Source: Fragilariopsis cylindrus CCMP1102 (lineage: Eukaryota; Bacillariophyta; Bacillariophyceae; Bacillariales; Bacillariaceae). Taken from it: DNA of 64,000 bases. The position numbers and the translations under genes are program-made. This document shows positions 12,453-58,287 of this stretch, in pieces; the stretch's first letter is position 1, and each line of letters starts with the position of its first letter. The DNA lies in contig FMBT01000300.1 in assembly GCA_900095095.1 (NCBI GenBank), forward strand, positions 62,001 through 126,000, read 5' to 3'. The notes under the pieces are model-generated. The model was not told the origin of the DNA, did no database searches, and saw only the letters and a program-made list of their open reading frames with translations.

Positions 12453-13345
12453 CTACAACATCTGTTTGATGAATTCATCGATTTCTTCTCCCCTATCTCC
12501 ATAATCCTTTCCTTGTTTTAATTGTAATAGATTCTTTTCAAATCTACTCCGGGTTGCTGATAATGGAAATGGTGTTAAAAACTTTGCAACAACATCAAAT
12601 GATTTTCCTCCATTTATTAATTCATGTACTAAATCTTCCATACAAATTAAACCATGATCATTACCCAAAGCATTCTCGATGATGGTATTATCAGAAAGTG
12701 GGACCTTTTCACCTTTCACAGTACCAAAAGACTTACGTCCCATTAAATCCCCAACAAGTCCATCAGATGGCTTACCATAAACAACCCATGGTTCTACCAA
12801 GTGTAGATGTCTTTTAGTAATTTCAGTGTAACGGAGGAATATTCCAGTATTGGCCTCCTTCAAACGCAATTGAAGTAGGATATTCAAAACGTTTCTTGGT
12901 GGTTGTCCAGCATCTTCTCGTATACGGATCACAAATACATAAGGACTTCCAACAGAATTTGCCTTGTATTGGATAACGTGCATATTAGTAGCATCTTCTG
13001 CTGCATCATCGTCAGAGTCGACATCGTCATCGGAGTCTTTGTCTTCAGCATTCAAAGCAATTTCCTTTGTTTTAATCTCAGTTTTCTTTGACGCACGTTT
13101 TTGCATACCCTTTTTCTTTACACGACGATAACGAATCTGTTCATTTCTTCTTTGCTTTGCTTTCGCTAAAAATGTTGCAGGTTTCTTCACATAGGAACCC
13201 CTCGTTGTTTATTAGATGATTTTTTGTTGTTGTCTTCTTCTTGGGCTGCTCTTCTGCGTCTAATATCGTCCAAATCATGACGTTTTTTTAGTACAGATTC
13301 TGGTACTAAAGGAAGATCCTTGTGTTCGTCTTTTACCGGTGCCAT
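12453..13345 (-). CDS. uL30-family protein (RLP7/RPL7-like), coding frame one base short
   Basis: Large-subunit ribosomal or ribosome-assembly protein. The frame opens at ATG 13345 with MAPVKDEHKDLPLVPESVLKKRHDLDDIRRRRAA, the usual PES-LLKKR start of the family. It continues in another frame from about 13200 with SYVKKPATFLAKAKQRRNEQIRYRRVKKKG and the L30 fold (YVFVIRIRED, LNILLQLRLKEANTGIFLRY, HLHLVEPWVVYGKPS, LGNDHGLICMEDLVHELI, ending RGEEIDEFIKQML). One base is missing between 13196 and 13240, where an A6 and a G4 run occur. No intron can fit the 155 nt. The acidic spacer EDKDSDDDVDSDDD and the VVYGKPS form suggest the nucleolar assembly factor RLP7/RPL7L1 rather than the structural protein, but both remain possible. 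Confidence 0.85.
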
Positions 13346-13808
13346 CTTATATTGGTGTTTATTTGTTCGGATGAATTTGGTGCTCTTTGACTTTTTGTTA
13401 TATTGGTAATTAAATTTGTATTACAGATCAGTTTGTTCGCTTTACATGCACAAATATAAATCTAAGGAGAGTACAAAGAAAAATTCCAAGAAAAAAATTA
13501 TCAAAAAATAATGAATGGATGTTGTTTTTCTGGGTGCAAGGCAAGACGTTTTCCAGTCGTGTACGTCGCTGGTCATCATTTTGGTCATACTAGTAATATG
13601 TTACATAATAAAAATATTAAAATTATTTATCATGTTTTTTGTTTCGTCAAAAAGGAAAACGTAATCGTAATACAAGAGATACAACATACTTTTAAGGCTT
13701 TACGTTTCTATTTATTGGACTTGTAAGACTGTTGGAATTGAATTCGTACTGTACCACTCACAAAGAATAACCCTTAACAAAACTTCAGCAACAACAACGA
13801 AAAAGAGA
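13346..13808. other. Divergent promoter region (uL30-like gene and membrane protein gene)
   Basis: AT-rich spacer between two divergent genes. No convincing ORF or repeat. Confidence 0.4.
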
Positions 13809-14730
13809 ATGGGAGTTATTGTTTTGGTTCGTTATATCTGGAAACGGATCAGTAAACCTCTTTCGAATAGTAATCAAGATATAGGTGTTGCAATTGCATT
13901 ATATGCTGTTTATCCAGCAATATTGTGGCTATTAATTGACAAATTTCATGGTGTATGTGGAGCTGACACATACGTACGAAAGAAAGAGGCGATTGACGCA
14001 AATAATTCTGTATTTTTGTAAGTTATATTATTACTATTATTATTTCTATTTCGTTGCCACAAGTTCAGAAAGTATTGTTTAATGCTTCTGTCGATCGATC
14101 GATCGATTGATTCAATTCGATTCCTTCCTTCTTCCGACAGTATACTTATTCAATATTCTCATTTAATATCTCTCTTTCTCATCACAATTAACCTTCCTTT
14201 AAAGATGGTTCACATTCCTTATGCGTACCTATAAATTAGCGACAATACTACTTTTTCAGGCTGATGCTAGTGATAAAGACGAAGATTCGGGGGAACGACA
14301 GAATCAGCAGGGTGAGCATGGTGATGGTGCTGGTGCTGGTAATGATAGAAGAGGAGGAGGAGACGCCGATGATGAAGGTTTTACGAAGCAAAAATGCAAA
14401 GTGTGGTTCATTCTTAGTCAGGAACTAACAGCAATATTCTGTGTTGCAGTTTTGTTACTCGTTTGTCTTCCAGTACTTGCCTTTTGGTTTATGTTTATTG
14501 GTATTCTAGTCTCATCGTACAATATATTTACACTACTAAAGCGACTATGGAGGGATGCACATTCAGTAGTTGATTATCTAATAGAAGGTCACGACGATGT
14601 ATCAATTATGGATGAACTAATTAGGGAGGGGGACGATGATGGTGGTAATAATGATATTGAATTTCAAGAGTTTATGATGAATTTTTCAGAAGACGACGAC
14701 AAAAACAAAAGCAACAACAGCGAAGTATGA
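13809..14730 (+). CDS. Unknown membrane protein with acidic C terminus, two exons
   Basis: Exon 1 starts at ATG 13809 (MGVIVLVRYIWKRI...) and ends at a GTAAGT donor at 14018. It encodes a basic amphipathic start and a hydrophobic helix VAIALYAVYPAILWLLI. Exon 2 encodes a Gly/Asp-rich linker, a long membrane segment (ELTAIFCVAVLLLVCLPVLA through FWFMFIGILVSSY), RLWRDAHSVVDYL, and a strongly acidic tail ending NNSEV. The best-looking acceptor (TTTTTCAG, ending 14259) is out of phase by one base. A weaker TAG ending at 14270 is in phase. Alternatively, exon 1 lacks one T in the T5 run just before the donor, matching the pattern seen in other genes here. No family recognised; two or three membrane passes expected. 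Confidence 0.55.
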
Positions 14731-24330: not shown

Positions 24331-27235
24331 CTACTTCTTCCATCTACCACTATTTCCTCTCTTCCCCTGGGAACCTTTCTTCGGAGGTGCTTTAGAAGCA
24401 CTTTCATCATTTCTGTTGCTCCCTTCAACTCTTCTTCTATCCGATTTATTCATATTCTTCATCCTTACATTCTGTGAAGAGTCTCGATTCTTTTGGATGG
24501 ACTTAGCAGACTTAGGAGCATCTGAATCAGCATCTCCATTTTTACTCTTCTTCCCACCTTTATTTCTTTTAGCACTTTGTCTACCAGAAAATGGCACTGC
24601 GTCATCATCTCCTTCTTCTCCATCATTGTCAAATACACCATTTCGTCCAACAGATCGATTTGTCTTCTTTTGCCACTTTTCATAAATCTCGCCGAGTTTA
24701 AGTTTATCTTTTTGACGATTTGTCCACTCTCTAGTTTGACTCTCTTGCTATAACTGTCCCCGCTCAATTCAGCACCTACGGTTGTCTGAATGTATTTTCG
24801 TTTCGCCTTGTCCCATCGCATCATTCTTTGTTTCTGTACAAGTTCTTCATTTTCGTCGCCTACAACGTCTAACATGGCCTCTTCTAGACGCAAAGCATTT
24901 CCTGTCATACCTTTCATCGAGCTAGCTGCACTGGGTTGCATTGCTGCCTCTCTCTGCCGCTCTCTTTGAGATTCTTGGGTATTAGAAGTATGGTCGTTTT
25001 CGATAAAGAATGCGTTATCTCGGAAGTCACGCCCTCTCATATTCTTTTTTCGTTTATCTTCGTGATCATCATTGTTTGTAGCGGAACGAAGTGTTTCGGG
25101 GTTCTTCTTCAGACGACGTCTTTCAGCTTTGGACATTCGAGGTTTGGAATCAATAATTGGAGTCGAGGATTTTGAAATGCCTTTCCGACTGCTTTTCTCC
25201 TCCCCGTCATTGGAATCTTTAATTTTTTTCCCATTCAATTTGATGCTTTCAATTTCACGCGTTGCTTCTTCTGCCAGCTCGCTTCCAGCAATTACCAATA
25301 CTGCTCCTTTGTCTCTTGCCATTTTCATCTGTCGCCTCATGTTCTTCATTGCACTCAATGCAAAGCCGGTGTCATTTTTCTTGGTGGATAAAATCGTCCG
25401 ACCTTTGTCAATAATACTCTGCACACCAGTTTCCCTTCCACCTCCCATAGCAAATGCTTCGAAACGGTCTCTTTCGGTCGGAATTGTGACACAGCCTGTA
25501 AGAACTCTTGCCGCTTTCGAACATTATCCATATCATTCAATGTTCCTATCTTACCCTTCGACTTCGCTACTTCGTACTGTTCAATCTCCATTCCACGAAG
25601 AAGTGGATGTGGTGGAATCGAAAACCCGCCAACGCGCTCTCCCGTTTTCATTTTCTGACCTTCCAGAATTGCTTTCGCTCGTCTCACCCCTTCTCTGCTA
25701 GCTTCTGGACGCGTTCTTCGATATTGTTTCATAGCATTGTTGGAAGTTCTTGTAAGTGACCGCATCAGTTCCGCCATATCCGTACCTGCCAGTTCGGAAT
25801 CCTTGATTCGAATAACATTTTCCATTTCCAGAGTCAAAATTGATTCTGGGATTGACCCATAATGTATCATTTCGGGGGTCATTTCACCAAGCTTATATGA
25901 CTCGATTTTCGTAGAATCCTCACTACTTTTACTATCGTTACGAATGTAATCATCGCTTTCACCACCTTCATTATTGCCATTATTTCTGTTACTAGTATTG
26001 GTCAATCCATCTGCCGTGGACAGCCTACGACCAAGGAATAAGTGCAGATCGACCATGTACGGTAGTTCATCAGGCTCAACGAGAGCAAAACAGAATCCGA
26101 TTCGACCTGCACGAGCTACTCGTCCAGATCGATGAACGAATAACTTAGGGGATGGAGGGAAATGATAATGTATAACATGATCACACATAGGAATATCAAC
26201 TCCTCTAGCGGCAACATCCGTTACGACCATAATCGGTTTTTTTCCATTACGAAAAGCAGACAAATTTTTATTTCTTGCCTCAGGATCGAGTGTACCATAG
26301 ATCAACGTCGCTTCTTCTCCACTTGCACGAAGAAGATTTGCTACGTATTCAACGTGATGGCGTGTCGCACAAAATATTAGGGTAAGGCCCGTTCGTGTAC
26401 CTTCATTCGCATCCTTATCATCCTGAATAGCGCCCATAATTTGTAATAGTCCAGCATCCTTTTCTAAGCTCCTGCATGTGATGAAACTTACTCGTAAGTC
26501 ATCACTGACGGAAACTTCATTGTCGAGTCTTATCACCTGTGGATCGGTCATGAAACCACCTTTCGTAAATTCGATTAATATCTTTGGCATGGTAGCACTT
26601 AACATAACCTTTTGACACCGTTCTGGGATCGATCTTGAGATTTCTCTCAATTGTTGTGCGAATCCCATCTCTAACAACCGATCGGCTTCATCGAGAATAC
26701 ATATTTGACAATCTCTAAGAGACATATCCGGAATTTCTGATAAAATATGAGCTAATCTACCAGGAGTTGCAACGATAACGTCCGGTTTCGAACTAAGATC
26801 ATCGAATTGTTGTTCCATTCTTTCTCCACCATGAATACCAATAGATTTTATATCGGTAAAATGTGATATTTTTTGTAATACACGAAGTGTCTGTAACGAT
26901 AATTCTCTTGTCGGACTAAGAACGAGACCCCGTACACCACGGTTGTGGGTGTTTAATATACTCTTATCTTCATCACTTGCAAGTAATGTTTCCATCAATG
27001 GGATAAGAAATGCAGCTGTTTTACCTGATCCGGTACGAGCCATAACACATGAATCAGCTCCTGACATAACAACCGGCAAGGCCTTTCGTTGGACAGGTGT
27101 TGGATTACGAAACCCCATCCGGACAACTCCACGGTATACGGGTTCACTCAAACCAAGTGGCTTGAACCCGTTGCCAGTTCCACCACCACCGCCACCGCTA
27201 CCATTGTTAAAATTATGCTGTTTCTTTGATGCCAT
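24331..27235 (-). CDS. DDX54: DEAD-box RNA helicase DDX54/Dbp10, coding frame one base short at two sites
   Basis: Nucleolar ATP-dependent RNA helicase for 60S subunit assembly. From ATG 27235: Q-motif region GFKPLGLSEPVYRGVVRMGF...TPVQ, ARTGSGKT (66-73), PTREL, TPGR, LDEAD (181-185), SATMP (213-217), TDVAARGVDIP and HRSGRVARAGR. The Dbp10-specific C terminus is spread over three frames. QAVSQFRPKETV stops matching near 25464 (a T3 run on the coding strand) and the family sequence resumes as FAMGGGRETGVQSIIDKGRTIL. VKLESGQIVKK leaves frame at the A5 run 24709-24713, and KLKLGEIYEKWQKKTNRSVGR resumes, running to GNSGRWKK at 24331. One base added at each site restores a single reading of about 960 aa, so the gene is probably intact in the organism. 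The C-terminal tail is Lys/Arg-rich, as in the family. Confidence 0.93.
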
Positions 27236-27876
27236 CTTTATCTATATTAGCTATTAGCTTGTAATGAATAGAGATACCAATATACCTAGTAGGACTTGCT
27301 ATTGTATTAGAGTAAAGCTATTTTCTTCTATTTTGTTCTTCACTTTTTGAGTTGGATGCACATTTTTGCAGGTAATTTTCTCAAGCTAGAATTTTTTTTG
27401 ATAAAAATATTAATATACATGTATATTGAATGGTCGTTCCGATCTATCGATGAGTCCCGCACGATTGATTTTTTTGATTCATGACTAACTCATTCACGAT
27501 TGGCATGTTACTCGTCTTACTAAAATTTATATTTTTCAACACAGTATTCTACTGAACCGCACAAAGCACGCGCAATACCTACTACTCGTATCATCAGACA
27601 AACAGCAACAATTACCATTGCCTCTATTGCTAGTCATCATATTCAATATTTTAATCAATGTAAGTGTAGCAACGACCATGACCAAATAGAAAAATAGTAG
27701 CCGAATTCCCAATTGAACTTGCACTACGTTACTACGGTAGTATCATGGGGTCTTGCTGGTTCAATTGAACTAAAAATCGTATTAGCATGCATGCATTAAA
27801 AATTAAAGTATCGAGTCCATCGTCTAACAATACTGCATTTTATTTTCTTCTTCAGTTTAACTAAAATTATATAATC
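27236..27876. other. Divergent promoter region of DDX54 and RPS15
   Basis: 640-bp shared upstream region of two ribosome-related genes read in opposite directions: a helicase for 60S assembly and a 40S protein. Co-regulation is plausible but no shared motif was identified. Confidence 0.5.
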
Positions 27877-30119: not shown

Positions 30120-30521
30120 TGAGTCTGGAGTTAGGTATGTGGGTGGGTGGAGGAATGACAACGGCGGCGATGATAACAATTCAAATAATGGTCTCACTCA
30201 TACCCTTTCTTGTACGTTGTTTAGATGATAACAATGGTGTGATTTGACAACTGAATAGCTGTCACATCGGACAAATCCCGAAGCAATTTTTAAACTTTTT
30301 TCAATTCATTCAATGAAAAATGAGGCGAAACATTTGAACATTGAATATTGAATACAATGGTATTGAATATTGACATAACGGTCACCTCATTCTCGGAATG
30401 AATCCCGCGCGAATGAATCAAAAATGACAAAAAAAAATCCTTGACTTTTTTTTACACCTTATTACACCATGACATTTCTTTTGATATTCTATTCTTGCTT
30501 ACTTTCAATTTCGACTTAGTG
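30120..30521. other. Divergent promoter region (GT8 and HROB-like genes)
   Basis: About 400 bp. Several ATTGAATATTGA-type repeats at 30340-30375. No gene. Confidence 0.4.
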
Positions 30522-32866
30522 ATGAAGAAAGCAACAAAACACCGGAAACGACACACGATACCGGGACCGGCTGGGATCTTGTGGTCGTCATCACATCCGG
30601 ATGAAAAATCCAGCCATGTTCGTGGTGGTGGTGGTGGTGGTGAGGAAGACGAAGGGTTGACACAGCAGCCACTATTTTCGAATAATCGAAATGGTGACAT
30701 CAGCAACGACGGCGACAGCAAAAACAAGAGAAACAAAAAGAACCGAGGTCGTCATCACGATATGTCGCCCCATGCCTGGTCGACCATGCAACAATCACTT
30801 GAAATCGTTACACCGTATCTGCCTAGTCATACCCAAGGTGATATCAAACGTCGGTATGAACTTTTACGGCCGCATTTACCGTCGAATTGTGTTTTATTAT
30901 TGGAAATATTAAGAGGAAAGCACGATGTAAAAATGACAAAAGATGCAGATGATTTATTTTTATGTGTCTGGGTAGAATCTATCGACGAAACAAACTCTCA
31001 TCATGGGGTGTTTACGGTAGAATTACGTGACGAAACTGGTGCAAAAATTCGTGCATGGATCGAGCCAAAATTTGTTAAAGCCGAGCTTCAAAAAGGAGCA
31101 CAAAACGACGATAAAAATACTGAAAAATCAAAGTCATCGATGGGTGTAGTCCGAACCGGTGTTGTTTGGATGCTGCGGAATGTTTCAATGATCGTGTTCA
31201 AAAACGACAACAATAATAACAATACTAATAACAATAACAATAATAATAACAACAACAACAATATAGGACGATCTTCTTTGTCATCGTCGATAACACGGAT
31301 GCTAGTCGTTTCAGAAAATAATATCAAAGAAGTATGGACACCCGAACAACACATGGCTCAGACTCAACCGAACGAGGAAGATGATTCTCCTGAGGCTCAA
31401 CGGAAGTATTTGGATTGGATGGAAAAACGTAAAGCTCTGGTGGTTTCATCGCCATCATCTTCATCAAAAAAGAAGAAGAAGAAAAAAAAGAAAGACGACG
31501 CAACCATCAACATAACCACGATAATGACGATGGCGACGATAACGATAGCGATGATGAAGGACAGCCCGAAGAAGAAGACTACGAACGCGATCACGATGGT
31601 AGGGGCTCCACAACAAACGGATTATGGAATCAATTACGAACGGAACCATCGTCACCCTTGGCATATCGAGATGTGAATAACGTACAGGGATATGACAGCA
31701 CTATCAAGACCACAACCACCGACAACAGCACAAGTATAAGTGGCGACAAAAGTCAGAAAACTTCTGACCTACACAAACAATTGTTCTCCATCTCGAATAG
31801 TGCTAGTGCAGGGAAAGACGAAGTATTAGATTCGTCTGGGTCGCACGCCGAAGAGATATCAACAACGATGACGACAACACATTTACATCATCCTAGCCAA
31901 TGCAGTACACAACTTGCGACACAACCTGACTCCCCCCGGAGAAGACATCATAGTTACAATACTACAAATCAAAACGAAAATCTGCAATCGTCGATAGGAG
32001 GAGAATTGTCCAACGATATGAACGATAAAGACTGTGAATACGATGCAAATGGCCGAAGCATATGTAGCAACACTATGACAAGTGACAACGAATATACCCA
32101 AGGAGGTACAGTTTGCAACAACAACAACAACAACAGTAGCAGTAGCAGTAGCAGCAGCAGCAGTAGCTTTCACGAAGATAGGAGTCGAGAGATAACTTCA
32201 CAACGAATAATGTCGTCGCGTTCTCCAATGGAAACGATCGATCAAACAATACATCCATCCTCTATTTCGTCGTCTCCATCGTATGAGAATTCCCAAAGGA
32301 AGAACGACAGTACGTCTTCACATCAAAACGATATTGCTTCGAAACAGAAGAAAAAGAAAGTGAAAAAGAAAATGAAGAATAAGAAACGAAGCCGCGATTC
32401 TATTTCTTCTACTACTCATATCTCTGGACAAGTCTTGAACGAAACCGTCGAGATGGCAGAATCGAAAAAGAAGAAGGAAGCGAAGAGCGCAATAAGCCCA
32501 ACCCGTAGAGTCAATAGTCCAATTCGTATGGCCGGCTCCGTTTGGAACACACCCGATGCTTCGATACTACAAATGCTCGATAAAGAAGAAGAAGAAGAGG
32601 AAACACAAACCGTCACCTGGAAATCACCCGCTTTTTCTACACAGCAACGACATCCGCCGCTGGTCAGCAATATAGCAAGTCGTCGTGGTGATGCTAATGG
32701 AATTGTGGATGATCCTCAATTAGAGAGTGAAGAAAACGACAATAAAACACGCCCTTTGCAATCTGCCAGGATTGAAAGAGGATCATGCGAGAATATGTTT
32801 GAACCATCTAGCTGGGCAGGTATTGATATGTCAGCATTAAGTGACGATGATGATTGTAATTTCTAG
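30522..32866 (+). CDS. HROB-like OB-fold protein of homologous recombination, coding frame one base short
   Basis: Starts at ATG 30522 (MKKATKHRKRHTIPGPAGILW). The motif PGPAGIL, HAWSTMQQSL, then a single OB fold fits the C-terminal domain of HROB/C17orf53 (DUF4539): LLLEILRGKHDVKMTKDADDLFLCVWVESI, GVFTVELRDETGAKIRAWIEPKF, then GVVRTGVVWMLRNVSMIVFK and MLVVSENNIKEVWTPE. In animals HROB recruits and activates the MCM8-MCM9 helicase at recombination intermediates. The OB fold is split by an Asn-rich run (about 31208-31263). The frame shifts at the A8 run 31482-31489, where one more A would join a second open stretch to 32866. That tail has an N/Q/S-rich middle, a Lys-rich patch, GSVWNTPDASILQMLDKEEEEEE and the acidic end SSWAGIDMSALSDDDD. 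Family call rests on the OB region; moderate certainty. Confidence 0.68.
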
Positions 32867-36645: not shown

Positions 36646-36647
36646 CA

Positions 36648-38311: not shown

Positions 38312-38692
38312 TGTTGGGGATTCAATTATTTATGGGTCCCGTGAGGTTTTCACAACAGTCATTTTATGTCATGAACGTCGTGACACTTGTGCATGTTGTT
38401 TCCTCACAATAAATATATATATGCTGCGCATTATCGTGTGGTTGATAATTGAAGAGAAGAGATGTGTCGTACTTACATTGCGTTAATGTAAGCACCTCCA
38501 TCGGCACCTCGGATGTCAATCAATGTTGGTCATTATTTATTATAGAACTTATGCAATAGGTAAATAATAACAACAAGTTAATAAGCTAGCCATACATAGT
38601 ATTCAAACCTATATATCATCCTAGTATCTTCAAGCATTACGTAATAAGCAACATACCAATATCCACGGCGTTGCGATTTCTGTATTTCAACA
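38312..38692 (+). repeat. 5' LTR of the copia element
   Basis: 381 bp, begins TGTTGGGG and ends TTTCAACA. Contains an AATAAA followed by an AT-rich stretch. Differs from the 3' LTR at one base. Confidence 0.95.
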
Positions 38693-38796
38693 TTCTATAA
38701 TAAATAATCACAGTCATTGATTAGATTAATCGAATCAACAACAACCACCTTACAAGATATACCTATTAGTATTCCAATTACTATCACCTTGTAAGA

Positions 38797-40924
38797 ATGG
38801 CTGTCACCGACAATAAACCTGCTGACACCACCAGTACAACTGGTGGCGCCGGTAATGCCCTCTCTGCCAAAGAGAAGGAAGCGAAGGCTGCTGCTGCAGC
38901 TGCAAAGAACACAGCAAACCAAAAGAAGAAAAATCATCCATCGAATGCCTCAAACAAGAAGAAACAACAAGTTGCGAAATCCAAGTTTGAAGGTTTAGCC
39001 TCTGGTACCAATCCTATGAAAGGAACTGTCATTGCATTAGCTAATGGCAATCTACTGGGACAATATCGAACATACCAGAACACGTTGGCAGGATCGGCAG
39101 CTGCTGACAAAGCCTATGGACTTGATTCAGTTATCCTTGATTTGGTTGCTAAAGTGGAATCTGATTTTGTTACATCAAAACCGGATCCTTTGCAACATTC
39201 AAACGTCGTTACCATCTACAAAAAAGATGCTACGGGTGCAGATACTACTACACCAACTGGAGAGAAACGACTAGTCTGTTTCGATCCTATCCTCAAGGAA
39301 AGTACGGATTCAAACTACTTCATCGATGTAAAGATACAAAAGGCCAACTGGAATAACTATGACAGGTTCTCCAAAGCATACTATCGTACAGCGATTGGGA
39401 ATGTAGAGGATGTTATCATCACCTACTGTCGCGCCGACAAGAGAATGGCTCTTGTGGAAACTAAAAAGATTTAATAGGATTCTTACAAATCCTTCGTTCA
39501 GTATGCGCACAAACCAATGGCATTGTTAAAGTCGATCAAGAATTCCAAAACCTCCACACCTTACATGCTGCAATTGCTTTCAAACAGGCAGCTAATGTAG
39601 ATGACTCCACATTCTCAAAACAAGTACAAGATCGATACAAATCAGCTATATTCACATGTGGAAAGTTCGCATTTGGACAAGCTTCATTTGACAAGGTACT
39701 ACAATCAACTCTTCCGACACCCGTCACTCTCGATGCTTATCTCAAGCTTACACCGGAAGATCAAGCACCATATGATAAACTTGTTGAAGAGCGAATTGTC
39801 GCTCGACTGATTGTGAAGAATTCATTAAATAAGAATCTTAAAGCTCATTTAATGACCACTTACTCTACTGCTAAAGGCGATTGTTACCCCAATACAATCA
39901 ACGACGCGCTAGCGTTGCTATCAACCTTTGCTGGACCAGCAAAGAATGCACCTACTGAAGATGCTGTCGTGTCATATCACGAAGCATCATCCGTACCGGA
40001 TCCAGTGTCATCTATTCAAGAGGAGGCTGAAGAAAACTTATCTGATCCAGAACAAGAACTAACAATTGAAGAACTGCCACCGGATGTCATCAGTCCAGTT
40101 GAATTCAATGCATCAGTTATGGCGACAGTCATTGCTGAAGCCACCAAAGAGCTGATAACGATCGTTTCTTTGGAGCAAGCTTTGCACAACTACAAGATGT
40201 GGATGACATCTATGATGACAACGAGCCAGATTTTGTAACCTGTGCCCATGTCGCTGAACGTCCAGGAGATTCGACTGATTTTGACAGTAACTCTGACATT
40301 GACCATGCAGGCGACCGACATGGTGATTCAAGTGACTGGGACACTGACAAATGGAATCGTGAACTCGATGAGAACCGTAACCGTCCTAAGACTGGAAAAT
40401 CTCCCATAACAATCAACAAGGCGCATGGCTTTGAAACAGTTGTCTACCTCACAGCACAACGTGTCAAGAATACAGGAACAGTTCGAATCAAGCACTATGG
40501 TATCGACGAGCCAGATCTCATCAGCTATGAATATGTTAGTCCTACCCCTGAACACATCATTGACTACTCTGATGTTATCCGTGAGAAATTGAAACTCTCA
40601 GGCATTCGTGATACTGAAACACTGGCTGAACTCTTTGAAGACTGCAGTATTGCAGAAGCCGCTAGGAGACTAGGTCAACAACTTAGAGATGTCAATCAGA
40701 CTTCTCTACATGGTGATACAGTCCGCTACCTCAAAGAGGAAACAGAGAGACACTATGATCACATCAGGTTCTACTCTGCTAGATATGATCGGATGATCAC
40801 TGAAATTGGTCCAGATGACAACGCGAGCTCTTTCCTGCAGCTCATGTGTTGTTGCACCACACAGTTGTGGCTGTATCAATCAATCAACGACGCCGCAAAC
40901 CCAATCGGTGGATCAATAAAGTGA
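38797..40924 (+). pseudogene. Gag-like region of the copia element (fossil)
   Basis: Starts MAVTDNKPADTTSTTGG about 100 bp after the 5' LTR, followed by an Ala/Lys-rich segment and capsid-like helical sequence. Assigned by position between the LTR and protease; no zinc knuckle was recognised. Broken. Confidence 0.6.
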
Positions 40925-41834
40925 CCCGAAAATTGGTCAACTGTGGTGTTAACACAGTTGAGTTACTTGAATCCAAATTGAAAGATAATACATTAAACCT
41001 GTGCTCGAACGCCATGGGTTACCAAAATTCCATATAATGACTATCTATGGATTCAACTTGATCCTAGACACATCGGATTTTCGTCAGGGCCGTTCTTAAA
41101 GGAAGACCGAATGCCCTATCATCCGTATGATACTGGATGGATTAAGACAATCTATTCATCCATCTGTTTAGGATGGTTTCTACTCTCTACTGGTTTACTA
41201 CCCAGGTTTACATGCTACTCGCTATACAATAATATTTGGATCACATATTGCAAAATCATTGCATATATGTGTGAAGCAATTGGCAACGCTATCATAACAT
41301 CTGGTGAAACAATCATGGAGATCGATTCCATTATATTCAATAAAATTAACTACATCAACCCGATCTACAATGTGCTTCAACGATTTGAGCACACGCTTTC
41401 TAGACTTAATATTTTCACCCATCCAATCATTGGGATGCGTCCAAAATCCATCTCAAGAAAGCACAACTCCAAGAACAACAAGACCTCCTCCGGAAGCCAC
41501 CTACATGTCTTCTTTGCGCGCAAACGCAGCCGTAAGAGGCACTCTGTTATCTCAGGGCCAAACCCACATTTGGCGAATGATAACAGCCGAACCAAGGATC
41601 GAACCCATGCTGGCACCCAGTCTCGATCCAAATTCCTCGTATCCCTGTACATACGTCCACGTCAGTCATCTATCCTATAGATGACCCATCATGTCAAGAT
41701 CTCACCTGGTATGATGCCATCTCTCCTTACTGGACTGGTGGTATGATTGGGACGGTGCCTATGTCCTTAATCACCAAGTTGTCTCTGTTACAACTGATCC
41801 TATCTTTGTTTCTGATTTACTTCCGGCATTTGAA

Positions 41835-44800
41835 TTGTCTGCTACAATTCAAACACCGAAAGCAAGGAGTGGGGGTAAGCATGTCGGCCCACGGACCACC
41901 ATTGCTATTGATAGCGGATCTACTATTCACATCTTCAAAGATGCCTTCCTCCTGGCTGACATCCAAGCTGATGAGAACAGTTCTATTTCCGTACGGACTA
42001 CAGATTCGAAGTTCTAGATCAAGGATATTGGACGTCTGTGTGATGACCTTGACACTCTGCCTCTCCCATCGGATGGTTACTATTTCTATCCTAATGGAGT
42101 AGCAAACTTGCTATCACTAGCCATGCTAACTGATACCAAGCGAGTGGTTATGGACAGCGCCATTGACAATGCAATATATGTATTCAATGATGACGGTTCA
42201 TATATCAGATTTGGTAAGACATCCAATGGGATGTACTGTATTGATATCACCACCGATGACGACCACCATATCGTCATGGCACATCAAACTGTAAAAGGGA
42301 GAGTGCACACTTTTCTGCAATCGATTGTAGAAGAGCTGCAAAAGTCAGGGATCTCCAAGAAGCACTAGCATGCCCTAGTGACTTTGATCTGGCTAATGCA
42401 ATTGAACATAATGTTATTGGTAACAGCCCTTTCACAAGGAGGGATGTACGTATTGCCAAACAAATATTTGGACCTGACGTCCCAGCAATGAAAGGAAAGA
42501 CTGTCAAGAACAAGAGCATTATGCCAAGAGAGGATGACGTAACAGACATCCCATCTTTCATCATGAAAGAATACTCCAATATCCACTTAGCAATTGACAT
42601 CATGCATATCAACGGAATCAAATTTCTTATATCACACTCCAAGCACATTGGGCTGATACAAACATACTGTGTTAGAAAGAACAATCGAGATGCCATACTG
42701 GCATGCATTCTGAAGATAGTACAAACATACAAAAGTAGGAGTGTGTTTAAGGTTGTAACAATTGAAGCGGATGGTGCATTCGAATGTATCAAACATGAAC
42801 TACAAGACAAGCCATACAACATCACTCTATCAACATGTGATGCTGACAGGCATGTTGAGACTGTTGAAAGACAAATTAGATTCCTTAAAGAAAGAATCAG
42901 AGCAGTAAGAATGATGATGCCATACAAGAAACTTCCCAAACGATTCACAGTTGAAATGGTCCTCCGAGTTACAATGCTAATCAACTCACTACCCAAACAG
43001 AATGGCATCCATTCCATATTATCTCCACGAGAAATAGTAACAGGAAAGAAATTCAGATGCCCTACTGTCAAGGTAGGACAATATGTCCAAGGACATACCG
43101 GAGGAACTAATAGTACTGATGAAGAAAGATCTATCGATGCCCTGTACATCGGTCGTGCCGACAATGGCAGTGGTCATGTGGTGTTCAAGCTGAGCACCAA
43201 GCAACCCGTTTCTGTCAACAGGGTTACAATCATTCCAACTACTGAAGCTCTGATCAATACTGTCAATGAGATTGGAGAACAAGAAAGACAACCAGAAGGA
43301 ATTGAATTTGCTGACATCAATGGAAGAGTTACATTAGACGACTTTGCTGCTAATGTGATCAATGATGATGACAGTAATGCCTCTGATATTGATTTCAAAA
43401 TGGATGAAGAATATCGAGAGGAGCTTCAAAAAGAACTGAAGCTGGAAACAAAAGATAAGACTGTTATCGAATCAGATCCGGATTCAAAACAGTTTGGTGG
43501 CGACAGTAATGTCCCTGACTCACAAATCGACTTCTTCCAGAATCCAATACAGCAACACAACAGGGACACCCTTAATGAGAATGAGGATGAACCTATTATC
43601 CTTGAAAGTCGCACCCGATCTGGCATGAATCTGGCTAACTCAACGCCAAAGCAGGAGTGTGGGAAGGATAAGAAGAAGAAGAAGAGAAAAATCATCGTTG
43701 AAGATAATACTAACTTAATTGAAGATGATCTTGACGACGATGATGTGATGCAATCCAACATATCATCCGAAGATGACATTATTACTAATGGTACATCTGA
43801 AGAAGAAGTAGAAGAAGAAGAACCGTCCGCCCCACGTGAGCTTGATTCGAACCTGGGTACATACTGGAACCTAGCGCATTCAAAGCAAGCATATGTCCTT
43901 AACACCATTACCTCATATAGTCATATAGAGGCATCGAAATCAACTCCACAGTATGGTTTCAATAGGGGGTTAAAGGAATTCGGCGCATTGGGATATGAAG
44001 CAACCATGAAGGAGCTTGATGACAACCTCCTAGGAATGGGAGCAGTGAAGATGCTATTACCATCAGAAGCAAGCCGTTCAATACGATTCGAAGCCCTAAA
44101 CTATCTTATGTTCTTGAAAAGAAAAAGATGTGGAAAGGTTAAAGCAAGAGGATGTGCGGATGGAAGACCCCAACGTGAATACATATCAAAAGATGAGTCC
44201 AGCTCACCAACTGTATCTATATATGCTCTGATGACATCCTGTCTGATGGATGCTATTGAAGGCAGGAAGGTCGCCACCTGTGATATACCAGGCGCTTTTC
44301 TACAGGCTGACTACCCAGCTGATAAGGACTGTTACCTCAAGTTCGAAGGAGCGATGGTGACAATGATATGTGCCATTGATCCTAAATACAAACGAAACAT
44401 AGTGGAGAGGAATGGAAAAGAATATGTATATGCCAAACTGACCAAGGCCGTGTATGGTACACTCCTTGGAGCTATCCTATTCTACAAGAAGCTCAGCAAG
44501 CAATTGATTGAATGGGGGTATGAACCAAACTGCTATGATAGATGTACCTTCAACAAAATGATTGAAGGGAACCAATGTACTATCCAATTTCATGTGGATG
44601 ACCTGAAAATATCGCACATGAAGCAGTCTGTAATAGACTCAGTACTTGATGATGTAAACAAAGAATTTGGTACTATCAAGAAGCCATTATCAGCTACCAC
44701 TGGTGACATACATGACTACCTCGGCATAACCATTGACTATAGTGAAAAGAACAAAGTTAAGTTCACTATGTATGACTATCTAGAAGACATACTGGCCGAA

Positions 44801-45664
44801 ATGCCAAGCGATATGAACGGAACCTCTCCCACACCAGCTAGTGACAATCTATTTGATGTGGATGAGGATTCAGAGCTATTGAATGAAAAAGAAGCAGATT
44901 TCTTCCACCGATCGACAGCTCGGTTGTTGTTTGCTGCTAAGAGGGCAAGACCAGATCTCCAAGTGGCTGTTGCTTACCTCTGTACCCGAGTCAAAGCCCC
45001 TACACGCTCTGACTATCGAAAGCTGACCAGAGTAATGAAATATCTAAGGTTAACTATATCCATTCCTCTCGTGTTAGGATGGGATGGAAGTGGAAAACTA
45101 CTGTGGTCTATAGACGCATCGTTTGCAATACACAAAGATATGAGAAGTCATACTGGTGCCGTGTTGACATTAGGCCAAGGAGCCTTAATGTCAATGTCCC
45201 TGAAACAGAAGATCAATACAAAGAGCTCTACTGAAGCAGAACTGGTTGCAGTTGATGACGCTATGAATTTTATTGAATGGATTCAATTATTCGTTGGTGA
45301 ACAGCTCAAGTCAATCAATCCGGATTCAATCCTTAATAAGATTGGTTCGGATGTTGTCGTTCAACAAGACAACACGAGCACAATACAGCTCGAGAACAAT
45401 GGACAAGCGTCTAGTACCAAGAGAACTAGACACATCAATATCCGATACTTCTATGTGACAAGCAAGATCAAAGAAGGAAGCATTCGTGTGATATACCATC
45501 CCACGAAGGAAATGGTATCAGATTATTTAACTAAGCCATTGCAAGGAAGTCTGTTTAGAACTCATCGAAACTCCCTCATGGGCCACGATGAGGATTCGAT
45601 AGCACAATGTAATAAAGAGTACAATGATGCTAAGGCAGCTGCTGCCAAGGACCTTTCTAATTGA
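41835..45664 (+). pseudogene. Pol region of the copia element: protease, integrase, reverse transcriptase, RNase H (fossil)
   Basis: Protease active-site motif in TIAIDSGSTIHIFKDAF (about 41905-41955). Integrase core around 42580-43050. A long acidic linker follows, then the copia reverse transcriptase (GCADGRPQREY, VATCDIPGAFLQADY, FHVDDLKISHM) at about 44140-44800. RNase H carries the hallmark copia end KINTKSSTEAELVAVDDA and TKRTRHINIRYFYV at about 45200-45460. The order protease-integrase-RT-RNase H identifies Ty1/copia. Part of a broken element. Confidence 0.9.
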
Positions 45665-45727
45665 ATGGAAGGGACATGTTGATTACATTCGAATCGATGC
45701 TAGTACATCAATTCAAATGTAGGAGTG

Positions 45728-46108
45728 TGTTGGGGATTCAATTATTTATGGGTCCCGTGAGGTTTTCACAACAGTCATTTTATGTCATGAACGTCGTGAC
45801 ACTTGTGCATGTTGTTTCCTCACAATAAATACATATATGCTGCGCATTATCGTGTGGTTGATAATTGAAGAGAAGAGATGTGTCGTACTTACATTGCGTT
45901 AATGTAAGCACCTCCATCGGCACCTCGGATGTCAATCAATGTTGGTCATTATTTATTATAGAACTTATGCAATAGGTAAATAATAACAACAAGTTAATAA
46001 GCTAGCCATACATAGTATTCAAACCTATATATCATCCTAGTATCTTCAAGCATTACGTAATAAGCAACATACCAATATCCACGGCGTTGCGATTTCTGTA
46101 TTTCAACA
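45728..46108 (+). repeat. 3' LTR of the copia element
   Basis: 381 bp, same ends as the 5' copy and one base different. Preceded by a short purine stretch (AGGAGTG) that may serve as polypurine tract. Confidence 0.95.
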
Positions 46109-48630: not shown

Positions 48631-48650
48631 GCGAATTTTTTTCGCAAAAT

Positions 48651-48676: not shown

Positions 48677-48778
48677 AAAAATTCGCACGAATGAAAGTTT
48701 TTGGGGACTGAAAATACATTAAAGAGAGAAAGAACGCCCCCTTTTGAACGCGCGCGACTAAAAAGACGTTTTCTAACC

Positions 48779-49930: not shown

Positions 49931-51095
49931 TCAATTCATTTGAATTAGATATATATTATTATTTGATGATAGAAATCGATTAATGAAAAAAGTGTTTGTT
50001 TGGTTCGGTTTCTGGACATTGTACAAAGTTGAAATAAATACAAAGGCTATTTTCTACTTATGCTGTCACTACTTGTACAATGTAGCATCATCTTCCAGGT
50101 TTAAACAATCGAAATGAATATGCTAGTTCTTGCTTTTTCTCATAATAAATATGACTGTCAAGATAAATCCTAGTTTCATCTATAATCACAACAGCTTATG
50201 GGGTCGCATATCTTTTCTCTTGATTGTTCTTAAGCTGCAAAATAATTTTTTATAAATGGCTTGGGTGGGGACACTTCTTCCTGCTGTATTCTTTCCAAAA
50301 CATAGTCCTTTTCAGGAAATTTTATATCTTAGAATTTACCATTGAAATTTTGTTTACAACTGTCCTTTTAGATAATGATCTTGCTGTTTCTGCATGTAAC
50401 AACTGCATCACAAGCAGTTTCAGTGTGGTGCCCCTTTATCCCAGATGCACCTTTGTATATAACCCAGGACACCCTTATTCAGATAGTCATTTTGGTCATT
50501 TTTTTGTCTCTTTTTCATTTCATTTATATGTGTTAACACTATGCCCACACATGTTACCTATGTGTATATAAGAATATTCTTGCTTCTTTTTCTCCATTTT
50601 CTCTATCTGTTTTGTTTCCAACCATCATTTCATTGATCGTTGTACATCATTGAGCCGCTTGGTGCGCATATCCAATTGCAAAGAGTGATGCAATTCCTCA
50701 GTTTGATTGTGCTAACTCAAAATCATCCAATTCTTCAATCCTCAATCCAATCGTGCTAACTCAAAATCAACACAATTGGTGTAACTTACACTAATCTTCC
50801 ATTGTTGTCGTACTCAGCCACTTTCTATCTTCTCCTTGTATTAGTAGTCAAGAAAGCATACATTATACACGCAAAGGGAGCACAAGATAACAATAATGAA
50901 ATGAGGGAGAGAGACCTATAATAATCACTTCTAACTTCTGGTTGTATCTGTCACGCTTGTCTAGAGTAAACAATTCAACAGCAACAACATTGAAGGAACC
51001 AATCTACAATATCAACTCAAGCAAGTTTTTGCCAAAAGCAGTAGTATCTTCTTCTAATTAGTGGATAAAGTTGCTACTCCAACACTCTCCCTGGG
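49931..51095. other. Gene-poor region
   Basis: No supported gene. GTGCTAACTCAAAATCA occurs twice (about 50707 and 50752). A TATATAAG-like motif lies near 50563, and the segment up to 51084 ends CTCCAACA, reminiscent of an LTR end, but no matching start or target duplication was found. Confidence 0.35.
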
Positions 51096-52500: not shown

Positions 52501-52502
52501 AC

Positions 52503-52712
52503 ATGGGCTGTGCAGACAACCCCGATAAGGTGGGGTTTAATTTCTTGTTTGAGTATGCCTCCGATATTGTCAATTGTGGTTGCCACAATCCTGGAGAAAC
52601 TGGTTGTCCTAATTGTATTCAAGGGGCCACCACATGCGATCCTGTTAATATTCCAGAGTGCGTTGAGGCCAGGAAGAAAGCCATACATGCATTGATGAAT
52701 TGGACTAGATAA
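52503..52712 (+). pseudogene. Cys-rich zinc-module fragment (weakly MZB-like)
   Basis: 69-codon frame containing FLFEYASDIVNCGCHNPGET, GCPNCIQGATTCDPVNIPE and ARKKAIHALMNW. The spacing CxC...CPNCIQ...C resembles the C-terminal zinc module (MZB/DUF1998) of Hrq1-type helicases, where a CPC-xn-GCPxCIQ cluster precedes a helix. No helicase domain is visible upstream in any frame, so this is a fragment or a different small protein. Confidence 0.3.
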
Positions 52713-53248
52713 ACAACGGGCTGCGACATGGATACTTTCACCATCTTCAGATATTGAATTCATATAATATTAGTAGTAAATCATATTTTTCTTGAAGCAA
52801 AAACATGCCTCCTTCTCATAGTGATTATTAGTCTGCCAGTAGTAAAAGAGTACTAGTACTCTAGAATTATTAACTACAGTAATACAATTTTAGTCAGGAA
52901 CAAAAATTCCGAACACTCTTGCACAAAAAGACGAGACACACTACTCAGTCAATGGAATACATTTGTACGACCAAAGTTCGTTTTTATTTAATATTTTTCT
53001 TATGCCCTCTATTGAAGTTGCTACATTTACTTATCACCCTTGAAGTGTTCAGTGATACTTGAAGTACAGTACTAAATTCTCTTCACTGAATTCGTTACTC
53101 TTTCTTTTCTTTGACAATCGGCACTCCGCATTCATAAAAAAAACATTCGTGAATTCGCACTCACAACTCACAGTATCTCAGACTCGTCATAAAAGTGTAG
53201 CTTAACAAACAAGTCTTGGTAATAAATTTGATATAAATCGAAACGGCA
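52713..53248. other. Intergenic, promoter of the TPR gene
   Basis: AT-rich; nothing recognised. Confidence 0.4.
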
Positions 53249-53767
53249 ATGATGGTCGCTACCTGCTACAAAGAAAATTGGTCTATTGTCTTCGATTCGT
53301 CTATACAACGGATCGAAGAACAGTTTCAACCGTCACAGCTCGACAATATAATATTACTGAATCAGCCACTAATCCAAAGAGACGAAGAAGAAGAATATAA
53401 TAATTCTGTGCTAAAAAAATACTGAATGACGTACAGGATGCTCAAACACGATATGGATGGGTCATGAGAAGGTTGCTGTATCATATAGTGCCCTCGGTCT
53501 TATTCGTTTGCACATGCAACGCGATCCAGAAGCCGCAAGAAGATGTCACGAATACGCGTTAACGATATTTCGAGAGAAACGACTGGCGAAGCAAATAGCA
53601 ACTACATTAAATGATATTGCATTCTGTTATGAGCGACTGAATCTCCCTGACGTTGCATTACAGCACTATGGGCATTCACTGAGAATTTTGAATCCGAGAG
53701 GATATCAGAAGATAATCCTCAATTGATCTCAACAAGGAGGGCAATTTTACGAATGCAGAGAAGATAA
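53249..53767 (+). CDS. Small TPR protein, coding frame one base short at three sites
   Basis: About 170-aa tetratricopeptide protein. From ATG 53249 it reads MMVATCYKENWSIVFDSSIQ and leaves frame at the A7 run 53413-53419. The next frame gives LNDVQDAQTRYGW and leaves at the G3 run 53459-53461. The third gives GHEKVAVSYSALGLIRLHMQ and the TPR repeats (PEAARRCHEYALTIFREKRL; TTLNDIAFCYERLNLPDVAL; QHYGHSLRI), leaving at the T4 run 53686-53689. The fourth ends SERISEDNPQLISTRRAILR and stops at TAA 53767. One extra base at each run gives a continuous TPR protein, so the gene is probably intact. TPRs mediate protein contacts; partner unknown. A true pseudogene is the alternative. Confidence 0.6.
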
Positions 53768-55847
53768 AAAGTGCGCTTGCACTACTTGTACGACTAGCTA
53801 CAATAATGTAAACACAATGTAAAGATTATGCAAATATAATCTGTAAATATAATGTAAATAAAACTAAGTAGAATAATATCTTCTGCATCTTCTATCAATA
53901 TAAAAAGACATTATACAAATTATGAATATTCCTTTCATGAATCAATCACTGAGACAAAACATTGACTACTGTACTTCATATAATTTTTCTTGTGAAAGAC
54001 TAGTGGTAGAGTAAGCAAACTTTCTATCAGTATCAAAAAGTTCCCACCTATTCAATAGAGCCCATATCATGCATCTAACAATTTAAGGTATAACAAACGC
54101 CTACCAAAAATGACGACCATCTCTTTGAGTATCCCAAACGAAAACATCTGGCTCTGTCTTGATTCTTCATATTCAGGTGATCTACTAGTACTTATCTACA
54201 ACGAAGAAAGCACATTATACATTATAGCGGTAGTTGGTCCTAAATATACTCTCATTGTAAGGTACGAAACTCACTCACCATGTGCGTACCTACCATCCAT
54301 TATATCAAATTTTATATGGTATCTCAATCTCTTGCTGCTTTCTCCAATGCTTATCCTCCTTGATTGTGGTCTCTCCCTCTTCTCAGCACGATTTTCTGTT
54401 ATATTGTCTGCTTTCTATACATATTCACCAGTCCACAGAATTTTGTAACGTCCCTTGGTCCTGTATTGTACTTTTCTTTCAAGATTGAAATGAACTTGGT
54501 TCTCACCTTGTCCTTTACAGTAGTCTCAGTGAAGATATATGTAATGTTGTGGATCATTTCACACATCCACTTGTACTATATTTCTCTCGGAAATTTGCAT
54601 TGATATCTGGTCCTCCTCCCACTTGACACAGTTCTTGTTGAACATAATTTTGATCCATAGAAAATCAATTAGGTCTGATCTGGCAATCATGTTGTAACCT
54701 GATGCCAAAGATGTCGTTGGAACTGTTATCTCCTCTTTTCTTCACCTTTGTTGTGACCACCACTTGTTATACAAAATCTACATCAACACATGTTTTTATT
54801 CTTGTTGTATACTGCCTTTGTCTTTGTTTCTTTCATCCTTCTCTTTCATCTAGACTATTGAACAAAAATATTCTCTCATCATCATAATGCATTCTGATGT
54901 ATTTTGATAGTCTGGATGTTCTTTATATGGTATAATTTATACAAAAAGAAAGATTCCAGCTTCCATTGTGCGAAAAATGCTAGAAATAAATGTAACAACA
55001 ATTACCTTTGTTCTTCAATTCTTTTTTGTTCTGATGTTTTCTGAAAGTTATTCATTATCATTATTATCATTATTATTACCATCCAGCCAGTTTCCACTTT
55101 CTTCCATTGCAGTGGGACATGGGAAACTTTTCTCCCCATTCATTACTATTTTTCTATAAAGTTTTCTGTAATCAATTCATCTTTCTTTGTGGTTGAAACT
55201 GTAACTTTATGAAAGGCTATGATGATTTCTCAATATTTTAGCACCAATAAGGCATCACGATGATGACAAATCATGTCGGCACAAATTAGATATTAGATGG
55301 TTCAGTGATTTTATATTGGTCGTTCGTCACAGTTAAAGTTTGTGCCTCAAACTTCACATAGTTTGGTGAACATTTTATGGGAAATCCAGTTCAATCTATA
55401 AGGAAATGAAAATCATATCGACAAAGTATGGGATGGTTGTACTGTTGTCAACAAAAACAATGAAAGAAAATGGAGATATGTGAAAAAGTGGTGGAGAGAA
55501 GTGCAATAAGAAAACAAGCGATTACTGAATGACTTGAGATTACGTATTTCATATCATTGAATATTATAAATACCGCAGTAAAGCAATCGAAAATTATTAC
55601 TTTTCTGTTACTATTATTATTATTATTATTCAGTAGTATAATTATAAAAAATTAAAACGATGAATTCATTTTGTTTTAAAATGAACCAATGGAAATACAG
55701 CAACTAATATTCAATAGCAATCTACTTCTATGTACGTTTCTCTTCATTCTTCTTTTGTATTCTTTCGTAACTTCATCCATCCACCACAAATCAATTCATG
55801 TTGTGACATCCGCCTTGTACCGTAATAGCATTAATAATACAATATTT
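53768..55847. other. 2-kb gene-free, T-rich stretch
   Basis: Only short hydrophobic chance frames (for example 54110-54448) that reflect T-rich composition. Short ATT/TTA microsatellites near 55053-55077 and 55615-55630. Nothing supported. Confidence 0.4.
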
Positions 55848-56464
55848 CTAGTCCTTTATTCCCATAAATGTACCTTCCTCTCGTGACTCATCCCAATTTT
55901 CAATCCATGGACTTGGACAGATACTGTTGCATATTGTCTGTATACTTGACATTTCTCATCGGCATCATCACCACTTTGTTTCTTACAAAGTAACCATTCA
56001 TTGTACCGATTCCAGCAATGTAAGGCTTGGTTTTGAGATGGGAATCGTGCATCACGTGGTGTGGTACGTACATTCTTAACTTGATGTAAGAGATCTTCCT
56101 GCTTCTCATCGAGTTCAGGAATTTTGTCACTAAAAATCTGTGATTGTTGATTGAAATTAAGTAGGGAAATAAATTAAATTAATATAAAATATTATTTCAT
56201 ACAAGATAAAGTCCACCAATCAATCGACGAATAGAAAAAAAGGTAGGGGTTAAGTTAGTTGTTATCGTTCATTCGTTCGTTTTTGTTTTGTAGTTATTGC
56301 ACCCCAAACGATTGGAGATTTTCGTCTGCTCCTTGCACAAACATTTAAAATTAAAAATAAAGCGTAGATTTATTCCTTCATTTCAGAATGTAAAATATAT
56401 AGTGTGATGATGTTTGTAGCTATAAATAAACTCTTACCTTATTAATTTTGGAAATGTTCGTCAT
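55848..56464 (-). CDS. COX6B: Cytochrome c oxidase subunit 6B, two exons, coding frame one base short
   Basis: Small intermembrane-space subunit of complex IV. Exon 1 is 56464-56438 (MTNISKINK) and exon 2 is 56137-55848 (donor GTAAGA, acceptor CACAG). The protein reads IFSDKIPELDEKQEDLLHQV, then TPRDARFPSQNQALHCWNRY, NEWLLCKKQSGDDADEKCQV and YRQYATV. The family's ending CPSPWIENWDESREEGTFMG then continues in the next frame, one base being missing near 55920. With it the twin CX9C (C-WNRYNEWLL-C) and CX10C pairs that drive oxidative import by Mia40 are complete, and the total is 105 aa. No single open frame covers it, so it is easily missed. The conserved C terminus argues against a pseudogene. 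Confidence 0.87.
56138..56430 (-). other. COX6B intron
   Basis: Intron of about 300 bases between the nine-codon first exon and the main exon; AT-rich, nothing else seen. Confidence 0.6.
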
Positions 56465-56543
56465 GATGTTTGAATTTGTTTAATATCTGGACGGGGAAGA
56501 TGATTGTTTTTTGTTCGTTCGGAAATAATAAAAATAAATAAAG

Positions 56544-56818
56544 TTAGGGATACGCTCGCGAGAAAATCAACTGCAACGATATAATATATACCGACGAACG
56601 TTAACGGAATCGATATGTAACGTAGGTAGTTGATGATCAAACCTGTTTAGCAAATTTATTAATGAATTAAAAAAAACACATGAATAAGCAGACGAAAACA
56701 TACTTACTCGAAGCCTAGCTAGATCTACTTTGTCAATGTGAAGAGTCGTAAACTTTGCTTTAAAGAGGTTGTTGTAATGGTTGTATGGAAGTTCATGATT
56801 GGCGAAGTGCAAACGCAT
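56544..56818 (-). CDS. Possible 45-residue spliced protein, unknown
   Basis: ATG 56818 opens a 37-codon frame (MRLHFANHELPYNHYNNLFK... DLARLR) ending exactly at a GTAAGT donor (exon 56818-56708). A GCAG acceptor at 56571-56573 resumes in phase with LIFSRAYP and stop (56570-56544), giving a 137-nt intron. Size and basic character would suit a small mitochondrial subunit, and COX6B is the next gene on the same strand, but no family is recognised. It could be chance. Confidence 0.35.
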
Positions 56819-57157
56819 GTTGATTGGGTTCGTATATACTTATTATGCATATAGAAGGTACAATAATATATTGTGCTGATAGTGTATCAAAATACTTATT
56901 ATACATACATATTATATAGTAGTTAAAGTGATGAAACCCTTCCACGTGTACATACGTACAAACACGGAAAATTGATGTTTGTTTCTGTGATGGGAAATCT
57001 CGAATCTCGAATCCATCGATATATCGTTGTGAGTATACCTACTGTAGTACAAGATAGGCTGTGCCACCATTATTGTTGAAGGGAAACGTAGTCTCTCCTA
57101 CTACTCTGACCATTCTCATAACCCTTTCTCTATCACAACATAAGTTATTCTACTATT
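56819..57157. other. Intergenic, promoter of the UBE2W-like gene
   Basis: 340 bp between the small minus-strand ORF and the E2 gene. AT-rich; no motif recognised. Confidence 0.4.
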
Positions 57158-58287
57158 ATGACGATGAATAGATCAACCCAACGATACACCGTTTTCTTTC
57201 TACTAGTCCTCTTGGGACAGGTTTCGCGTTCACAGGGGATAAAATCTTTTGGAAAGAATATATTATCACCAACAACTATTATTGCTACAGGAAGTTCCGA
57301 AGCGAAGAAGAATATACATGCAAGCGCTACCGATGTCTCTGCGTTAAAAGTTACATCAAGGACGTCTGCTTTACTATTCCATTTCCGTGGCGGTGGAGAA
57401 ATTTCTATTCCCGATGACGAGGATGATGACAACGAATGTGATGATACTAGTAGCATCCTATTAACGAAGTTACGCAACACGATACGGAATATTTTACAAT
57501 TTGGTGATACGAAACTCCCATCAATATTTTCTGAATTATTAAGATCGTGCTTTAAAACGGTCGAAACCATAACAGGAATTAGTCTTCTACCATCCAAAGC
57601 AACAACAACAAAGAAAAAATCCGTCAATAACGGAAAGAAGAAAAAGAAGATTAGTAGTAAGCAGCAGCAGCAAATGATAATGAATCAAACAAGAAGAAGA
57701 AAGAAAATGAAGATGAAAGTACTGAAGAAGAAACGGGAAAAACGAAGAAGAAGGAACCAATAAAAAAGAAATCATCATCATCATCGAACGCGAAAAAGAG
57801 ACCATCTGCTGCAACAACCAAACATTTAGCACAATCTATTAAATCGACGAATCCAAATTATCGTATCCAAAAAGAATTAAAAGCATTCATTAAGTCTCCA
57901 CCACCTAATTTAACAGTCCAAGTTGGATCGAATATTAGACTTTGGGTCGTTACGATGGTTGGTGCAAAAAATACTATCTACGAAGGAGAAGTTTTTAAAT
58001 TACGGATTATGTTCCCACCACAATATCCAACAGTTCCTCCATCTGTTTACTTTTTGAAAGGTAATATGCCCACCCATGAACATGTATACACAAATGGTGA
58101 TATATGTTTAAGTTTACTTGGAAAGGACTGGCGACCGACGATGTCAGCACAATCAATCGCAGTATCAATCTTATCTATATTATCTTCTGCTGGTTCCAAG
58201 TCATTACCCATGGACAATGCACAACATGCAACTAATAAACCTGGAAAATACCAAAAAGATTGGGTCTACCATGATGATAGATGCTAG
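57158..58287 (+). CDS. UBE2W-type ubiquitin-conjugating enzyme with signal-peptide-like leader, coding frame one base short
   Basis: The E2 domain is the C-terminal half: RIQKELKAFIKSPPPNLTVQ, GAKNTIYEGEVFKLRIMFPP, QYPTVPPSVYFLKGN, HEHVYTNGDICLSLLGKDWR with the catalytic Cys, and MSAQSIAVSILSILSS. It ends WVYHDDRC, matching the UBE2W-specific YHDDTC ending. UBE2W ubiquitinates disordered protein N termini. The N terminus from ATG 57158 (MTMNRSTQRYTVFFLLVLLG) is a hydrophobic, signal-like leader followed by about 150 residues with a Lys/Glu-rich linker; typical UBE2W has no such leader. The leader frame and the E2 frame are offset by one base within the K/E/Q-rich region 57600-57690 (A-runs). 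If the leader is real, the enzyme enters the secretory route, as for diatom periplastidal (SELMA) ubiquitin components. Confidence 0.82.

Follow-up and report, generated by a model that had tools for sequence, protein, structure and literature searches.

Gene-breaking single-base deletions are a described fault of long-read assemblies. In the part of PMC12007338 available to us, indel rates in five assemblies ranged from 0.13 to 187 per 100 kb; one older-chemistry assembly stood at 34.23 indels per 100 kb, mostly false deletions, and in the five rows used here deletions outnumbered insertions by 1.8:1 to 7.3:1. Indels in diatom nanopore assemblies needed short-read correction according to the accessible text of PMC8147415, and in the section of PMC7500977 used here polishing produced more insertions than deletions, which counts against a simple error model. 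Frame breaks of one sign are also possible in deletion-biased pseudogene decay. For programmed -1 ribosomal frameshifting, the slippery site is defined as X XXY YYZ. The same definition is found in the available portion of PMC3498833.

The window analyzed here, a 64-kb stretch of DNA with a G+C content of 38.8% (34-45% per 2 kb), holds eukaryotic nuclear-type sequence with GT-AG introns and one LTR retroelement, and we take it to come from a diatom or a relative. Chaetoceros tenuissimus, sequenced by MinION plus MiSeq, has a similar G+C content of 38.9% (PMC8613185), the one feature that links it to the window. An initial annotation had listed frame changes in six of its host genes. The features concerned are given below; each host frame step among them reads as one base short:

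12453..13345, minus strand, RLP7/L7-like gene; one step, near 13190-13205
13809..14730, plus strand, membrane protein; intact, two exons, intron 14018-14204
24331..27241, minus strand, DDX54/Dbp10-like helicase; two steps, near 25463 and 24708
30513..32866, plus strand, HROB-like gene; one step, within 31433-31535
38312..46027, plus strand, Copia-type retroelement; LTRs 38312-38611 and 45728-46027
53240..53764, plus strand, TPR protein gene; three steps, near 53419, 53460 and 53688
55851..56173, minus strand, COX6B gene fragment; one step, at 55920-55924
57122..58287, plus strand, ubiquitin-conjugating gene (UBE2W-like is the label of the initial annotation); one step, located upstream of the domain

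Frame steps were called using a codon-usage Viterbi decoder for which the window itself supplied the training data. Its states were six coding frames and a single noncoding state, and frame steps of either sign (short or extra) carried the same penalty; frame by itself defines a length change only modulo three. When single changes were simulated in intact ORFs, 60 deletions gave 48 short calls and 12 misses and 60 insertions gave 53 extra calls and 7 misses, with the right sign in 101 of the 120 changes, 19 missed and none of the wrong sign. Analysis of the window at a penalty of -12 revealed seven direct frame steps, all one base short. At -9 there were eight steps, again all one base short (two-sided sign test, P = 0.008), five of them in host genes (RLP7 at 13188, DDX54 at 24708 and 25482, HROB at 31519 and the ubiquitin-conjugating gene at 57660) and three in the Copia element (39468, 40150 and 42298). 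Looser penalties admitted extra steps, with short/extra counts of 10/2 at -7, 11/4 at -6 and 15/11 at -5. The first extra step at -7, at 2624, was paired with a short step at 2553 and fell inside an intron recognized by eye (2498-2647); the second, at 41633, lay in a portion of the Copia element that the decoder reads poorly. Three-frame views likewise placed all nine listed host steps, in six genes, one base short. Together with the uniform sign from a symmetric decoder, this supports, for these nine steps, the claim that one base has to be added and never removed. The decoder recovered five of the nine listed steps (RLP7, both in DDX54, HROB and UBE2W); none of the three TPR steps was called, nor was the COX6B step, and these rest on homology. 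In five of the seven measured piece pairs the two frames overlapped by one base at the junction, but the pairs were chosen by the analyst and the overlap is not independent evidence; the remaining pairs left 2 nt (TPR3) and 5 nt (COX6B). The steps and their sign are read directly from the sequence, and most of the steps are flanked on either side by coding signal or by a profile match.

Reading through the steps extended several profile matches. The COX6B match increased from 28.3 bits in one frame (positions 1-38 of 66) to 51.8 bits with both frames (1-65). Profile searches identified DEAD, Helicase_C and DBP10CT domains in the DDX54 gene, and the DBP10CT match, which in one frame reached 25.9 bits and position 61, read through to 33.7 bits and 66/66; a weak similarity to human DDX54 (15.5 bits) ran over the step at 24708. 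PDB sequence searches around the DDX54 step at 25463 returned no DDX54 match and one unrelated hit (E 0.81). For the RLP7 read-through protein, the PDB match table listed yeast RLP7 over query residues 11-271, a span that contains the step at residue 49/50; the printed alignments were to L7 chains, and their N-terminal stretch over the step scored 13.2 and 17.1 bits only. The gain for TPR_12 was small: the middle piece alone scored 39.3 bits, and reading through gave 42.6 bits and a second stretch. The HROB domain was weak (19.8 bits vs a cut-off of 30.8) and lay entirely upstream of its step, and UQ_con (100.3 bits) was confined to the second frame of the ubiquitin-conjugating gene; since both domains are wholly one-sided, it is the codon signal by itself that carries the HROB and UBE2W steps. 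The reported continuation of family similarity across the change therefore stands for COX6B, the DBP10CT step of DDX54 and RLP7, but not for HROB and UBE2W, where it is found on one side, and it was not seen for the DDX54 step near 25463. Against NCBIfam, DDX54 matched bacterial helicases and the conjugating enzyme had no match. Further witnesses were sought in the window, with no Rfam match at gathering thresholds and no tRNA; tblastn searches for a second DNA copy (the RT ORF against viral and genome contigs, DDX54 against viral contigs) yielded pattern matches and no relatives.

Where the coding signal or family match continues past a step the gene is presumably whole, so either the cell corrects the frame or the sequence is wrong. 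The one-sided sign, the continued coding and profile signal, the occurrence in unrelated genes and in a retroelement with identical LTRs, and the lack of any motif common to the steps favor the second possibility: the steps very probably reflect single-base deletions that persist in a long-read consensus polished too little. Most of the affected genes would then be intact in the organism, with single bases lost from the assembled sequence. Residual false deletions of the long-read consensus would have escaped polishing, and errors may be worse where depth or mappability is poor, as in the 53.4-57.7 kb stretch and the retroelement. We infer the disagreement between reads and assembly, the sequencing platform and the role of depth in the clustering. 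Nine events in ~29.2 kb of assigned coding sequence give a host rate of 31 per 100 kb (95% CI 14-59), counting all nine steps, ambiguous ones included; this rate lies inside the range available from PMC12007338 and near its value of 34.23, a comparison row picked by the analyst. The window resembles the long-read false deletions in that part of PMC12007338 in its gene-breaking single-base deletions, its similar rate and its excess of deletions over insertions. In contrast to them, its steps are one-sided in eight of eight cases, clustered and weakly associated with homopolymers; at the ratios of the rows used, eight of eight short has a probability of 0.03-0.36, and the window is rather more one-sided than these rows. 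An ordinary artefact, not new biology, is thus most likely. If the steps are assembly errors, gene models would be truncated here and genes could be mistaken for pseudogenes or for cases of novel recoding, and a count of one-sided frame steps offers a cheap, read-free check of assembly quality.

The steps had also been placed nearly all at homopolymers. Approximately 16% of coding bases sit in runs of 3 or more, so runs of 3-4 beside a step mean little. The longest run in each of 13 step intervals was compared with that in length-matched intervals drawn at random from coding sequence; for TPR3, COX6B and UBE2W the interval lengths and runs were fixed by the analyst and not by the decoder posterior. 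This analysis revealed an unusually long run in three of the 13 intervals, namely HROB (P = 0.005), TPR1 (P = 0.008) and the first Copia step (P = 0.038); the analyst-set UBE2W interval gave P = 0.094. The 5-nt gap at COX6B contains no homopolymer run. No run above 2 occurs in the UBE2W posterior interval (57661-57670), and the TPR3 posterior interval (53651-53678) stops short of the T4 at 53686, so that two of the sites first proposed, the TPR T4 at 53686-53689 and the UBE2W A-runs, lie outside the decoder intervals. Unusually long runs are present at HROB and TPR1, as claimed, but not in most of the intervals. Under-called homopolymers in a long-read assembly had been offered as the cause; consensus deletions remain the best explanation, whereas the homopolymer part of the proposal is weakly supported. 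A/T runs of 9 or more numbered 4, compared with 3.2, 4.1, 6.0 and 7.2 expected under Markov orders 1-4; this shows no clear truncation of the run-length spectrum and is not decisive.

The host steps were unevenly distributed. Five of the nine cluster at 53.4-57.7 kb, and only ~1.9 kb of assigned coding sequence lies between 53.2 and 58.3 kb; the three TPR steps fall within ~270 nt, an arrangement whose chance, taken over the host coding sequence, is ~0.01. The cluster is not explained by homopolymer under-calling at a uniform rate and points to a local drop in quality. It would be explained by a local drop in depth or by genuine decay of the TPR copy.

The pattern had been described for host genes, but steps of the same sign also occur in the Copia element, which had gone unlisted. 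Its LTRs are identical over 300 nt, a comparison that is uninformative for base loss in that systematic errors would affect both copies alike (three runs of at least 4 per copy). The RT ORF at 42260-45664 is open and carries an RVT_2 match of 55 bits. Forced decoding of gag-pro gave six short steps, one extra step and one stop at penalties of -10 and -8, with short/extra counts of seven/two at -6 and six/four at -4; the extra step at 41002 begins a poorly modeled stretch that runs to ~41750. The six steps in gag-pro compare with none in the RT ORF (3.35 kb; P = 0.03). When gag-pro was block-shuffled 200 times, the short-minus-extra difference averaged 1.95 (sd 5.5, maximum 15), which places the observed +4 within the noise; gag-pro stood out from the shuffles by its score (135 vs at most -83) and by its few steps (6 vs a mean of 28). 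Control decoding at -8 gave short/extra counts of 26/21 for the Copia antisense strand, 17/14 for gag-pro antisense, 26/13 (plus) and 12/17 (minus) for 20991-24333, 12/9 (plus) and 12/10 (minus) for 50600-53200, and 3/7 for 11143-12473. In some noncoding stretches, forced decoding thus favors one sign over the other. Because the gag-pro surplus of short steps does not exceed shuffle noise, the Copia element is taken as supportive only.

The Copia element also bears on real decay, the alternative that survives best and is nevertheless improbable, in which some loci, such as the TPR copy and Copia gag-pro, are pseudogene-like copies with deletion-biased indels. Step density is higher in TPR and in gag-pro than elsewhere, and the forced decoding of gag-pro holds a stop and an extra step. 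One-sidedness alone does not exclude decay; if a 3:1 deletion bias is assumed, eight of eight short has a probability of 0.10. However, decaying pseudogenes are expected to show both indel signs and in-frame stops, and at the stringent setting all eight steps had one sign. The codon signal is strong past the steps in RLP7, DDX54, HROB and UBE2W, and COX6B, DBP10CT and RLP7 are conserved on either side of theirs; in this persistence of coding signal and conserved residues past the breaks, most of the genes differ from products of deletion-biased decay. The identical LTRs argue for a recent Copia insertion, although a defective retroelement can be mobilized in trans.

There is very little chance that unrecognized introns shift the frame at most steps with no base missing. 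The membrane protein at 13809 proved to be such a case: it had been suspected of a further deficit, but there is no base to add, and its two exons are joined in frame by a 187-nt GT-AG intron. Six reference introns of 87-222 nt were accepted by eye, of which the membrane protein's was the one translated across, and their T content was 33-53%. The best-looking candidates at HROB, UBE2W and DDX54 24708 had 12-17% T in comparison; UBE2W has GTAAGC donors at 57657, where the candidates contain 12-13% T. In DDX54, a 59-nt GTAAGA...ACAG stretch at 25496-25554 has a frame-restoring length and 25% T. The DDX54 step near 25463 could be an intron instead of a missing base, and of all the steps it is the hardest to clear of this reading. 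Enumeration yielded 15 candidates for RLP7, 38 for DDX54 25463, 64 for DDX54 24708, 33 for HROB, 67 for UBE2W and 19 for TPR2, many of which are surely due to chance. It covered the nine host steps, with COX6B and TPR3 giving no rows as their anchors failed the open-frame test. TPR1 had no candidate at all, and the COX6B and DBP10CT profile matches leave no room for an intron.

Collapsed haplotypes, with alleles mixed in the assembly to produce apparent frameshifts, have been reported for Trypanosoma brucei in the available part of PMC8445201, but should yield steps of both signs except where the alleles differ in one direction, and are a most improbable source of the steps seen here.

It is similarly hard to credit that the cell recovers the frames by frequent programmed -1 frameshifting or by editing or slippage of transcripts. 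Every step lies in the -1 direction, as in programmed -1 ribosomal frameshifting, but the affected genes are many and unrelated. Were the sequence right, it would be remarkable for nuclear housekeeping genes to be recoded on such a scale, and to our knowledge nothing comparable is known in algae. Judged by title, none of the papers listed for programmed ribosomal frameshifting in diatoms dealt with diatom nuclear genes. That the sequence is correct and the alga routinely repairs one-base deficits in housekeeping genes and a mobile element by -1 recoding or transcript slippage, for the most part at places that lack a canonical slippery site, is given almost no credence. The strict heptamer X XXY YYZ was present in one of the 13 intervals (TPR1) and missing from the other 12, which makes general programmed frameshifting unlikely. 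Under a looser definition, missing from 10 of the 13, three intervals qualified, with HROB (A AAA AAG) and the third Copia step (A AAC CCA, a heptamer match) added to TPR1.

Forced decoding, in which the codon-usage decoder was made to read a stretch as coding (penalty -8), was applied to the plus strand of 20991-24333. This nominally noncoding stretch returned 26 frame steps (changes of reading frame) with one base too few and 13 with one base too many, a skewed ratio. Inside the same interval, the free decoder called a weakly coding piece on the minus strand (23073-23310).

Analysis of the host genes revealed that five of their nine frame steps lie in 53240-57700, although the coding share of this stretch is small. 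The stretch is possibly one of low quality or low depth in the assembly. Judged by eye, the first part of the UBE2W-like conjugating-enzyme gene (57122-57660) encodes an N-terminus that is hydrophobic and resembles a signal sequence, and then a long linker rich in Lys; as a candidate E2 with a possible targeting presequence, it would merit a closer look.

Two repetitive features were also recorded:
38312-46027, Copia-type element, whose two LTRs of 300 nt show 100% identity and whose RT ORF is open
36741-36844 and 48624-48686, palindrome-like repeat with a TTCGCACGAATGATCATTCGTGCGAA core, three related copies of 63 nt each

The gag-pro part of the Copia-type element is interrupted by frame steps. 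The repeat copies flank the element on either side, separated by approximately 12 kb.
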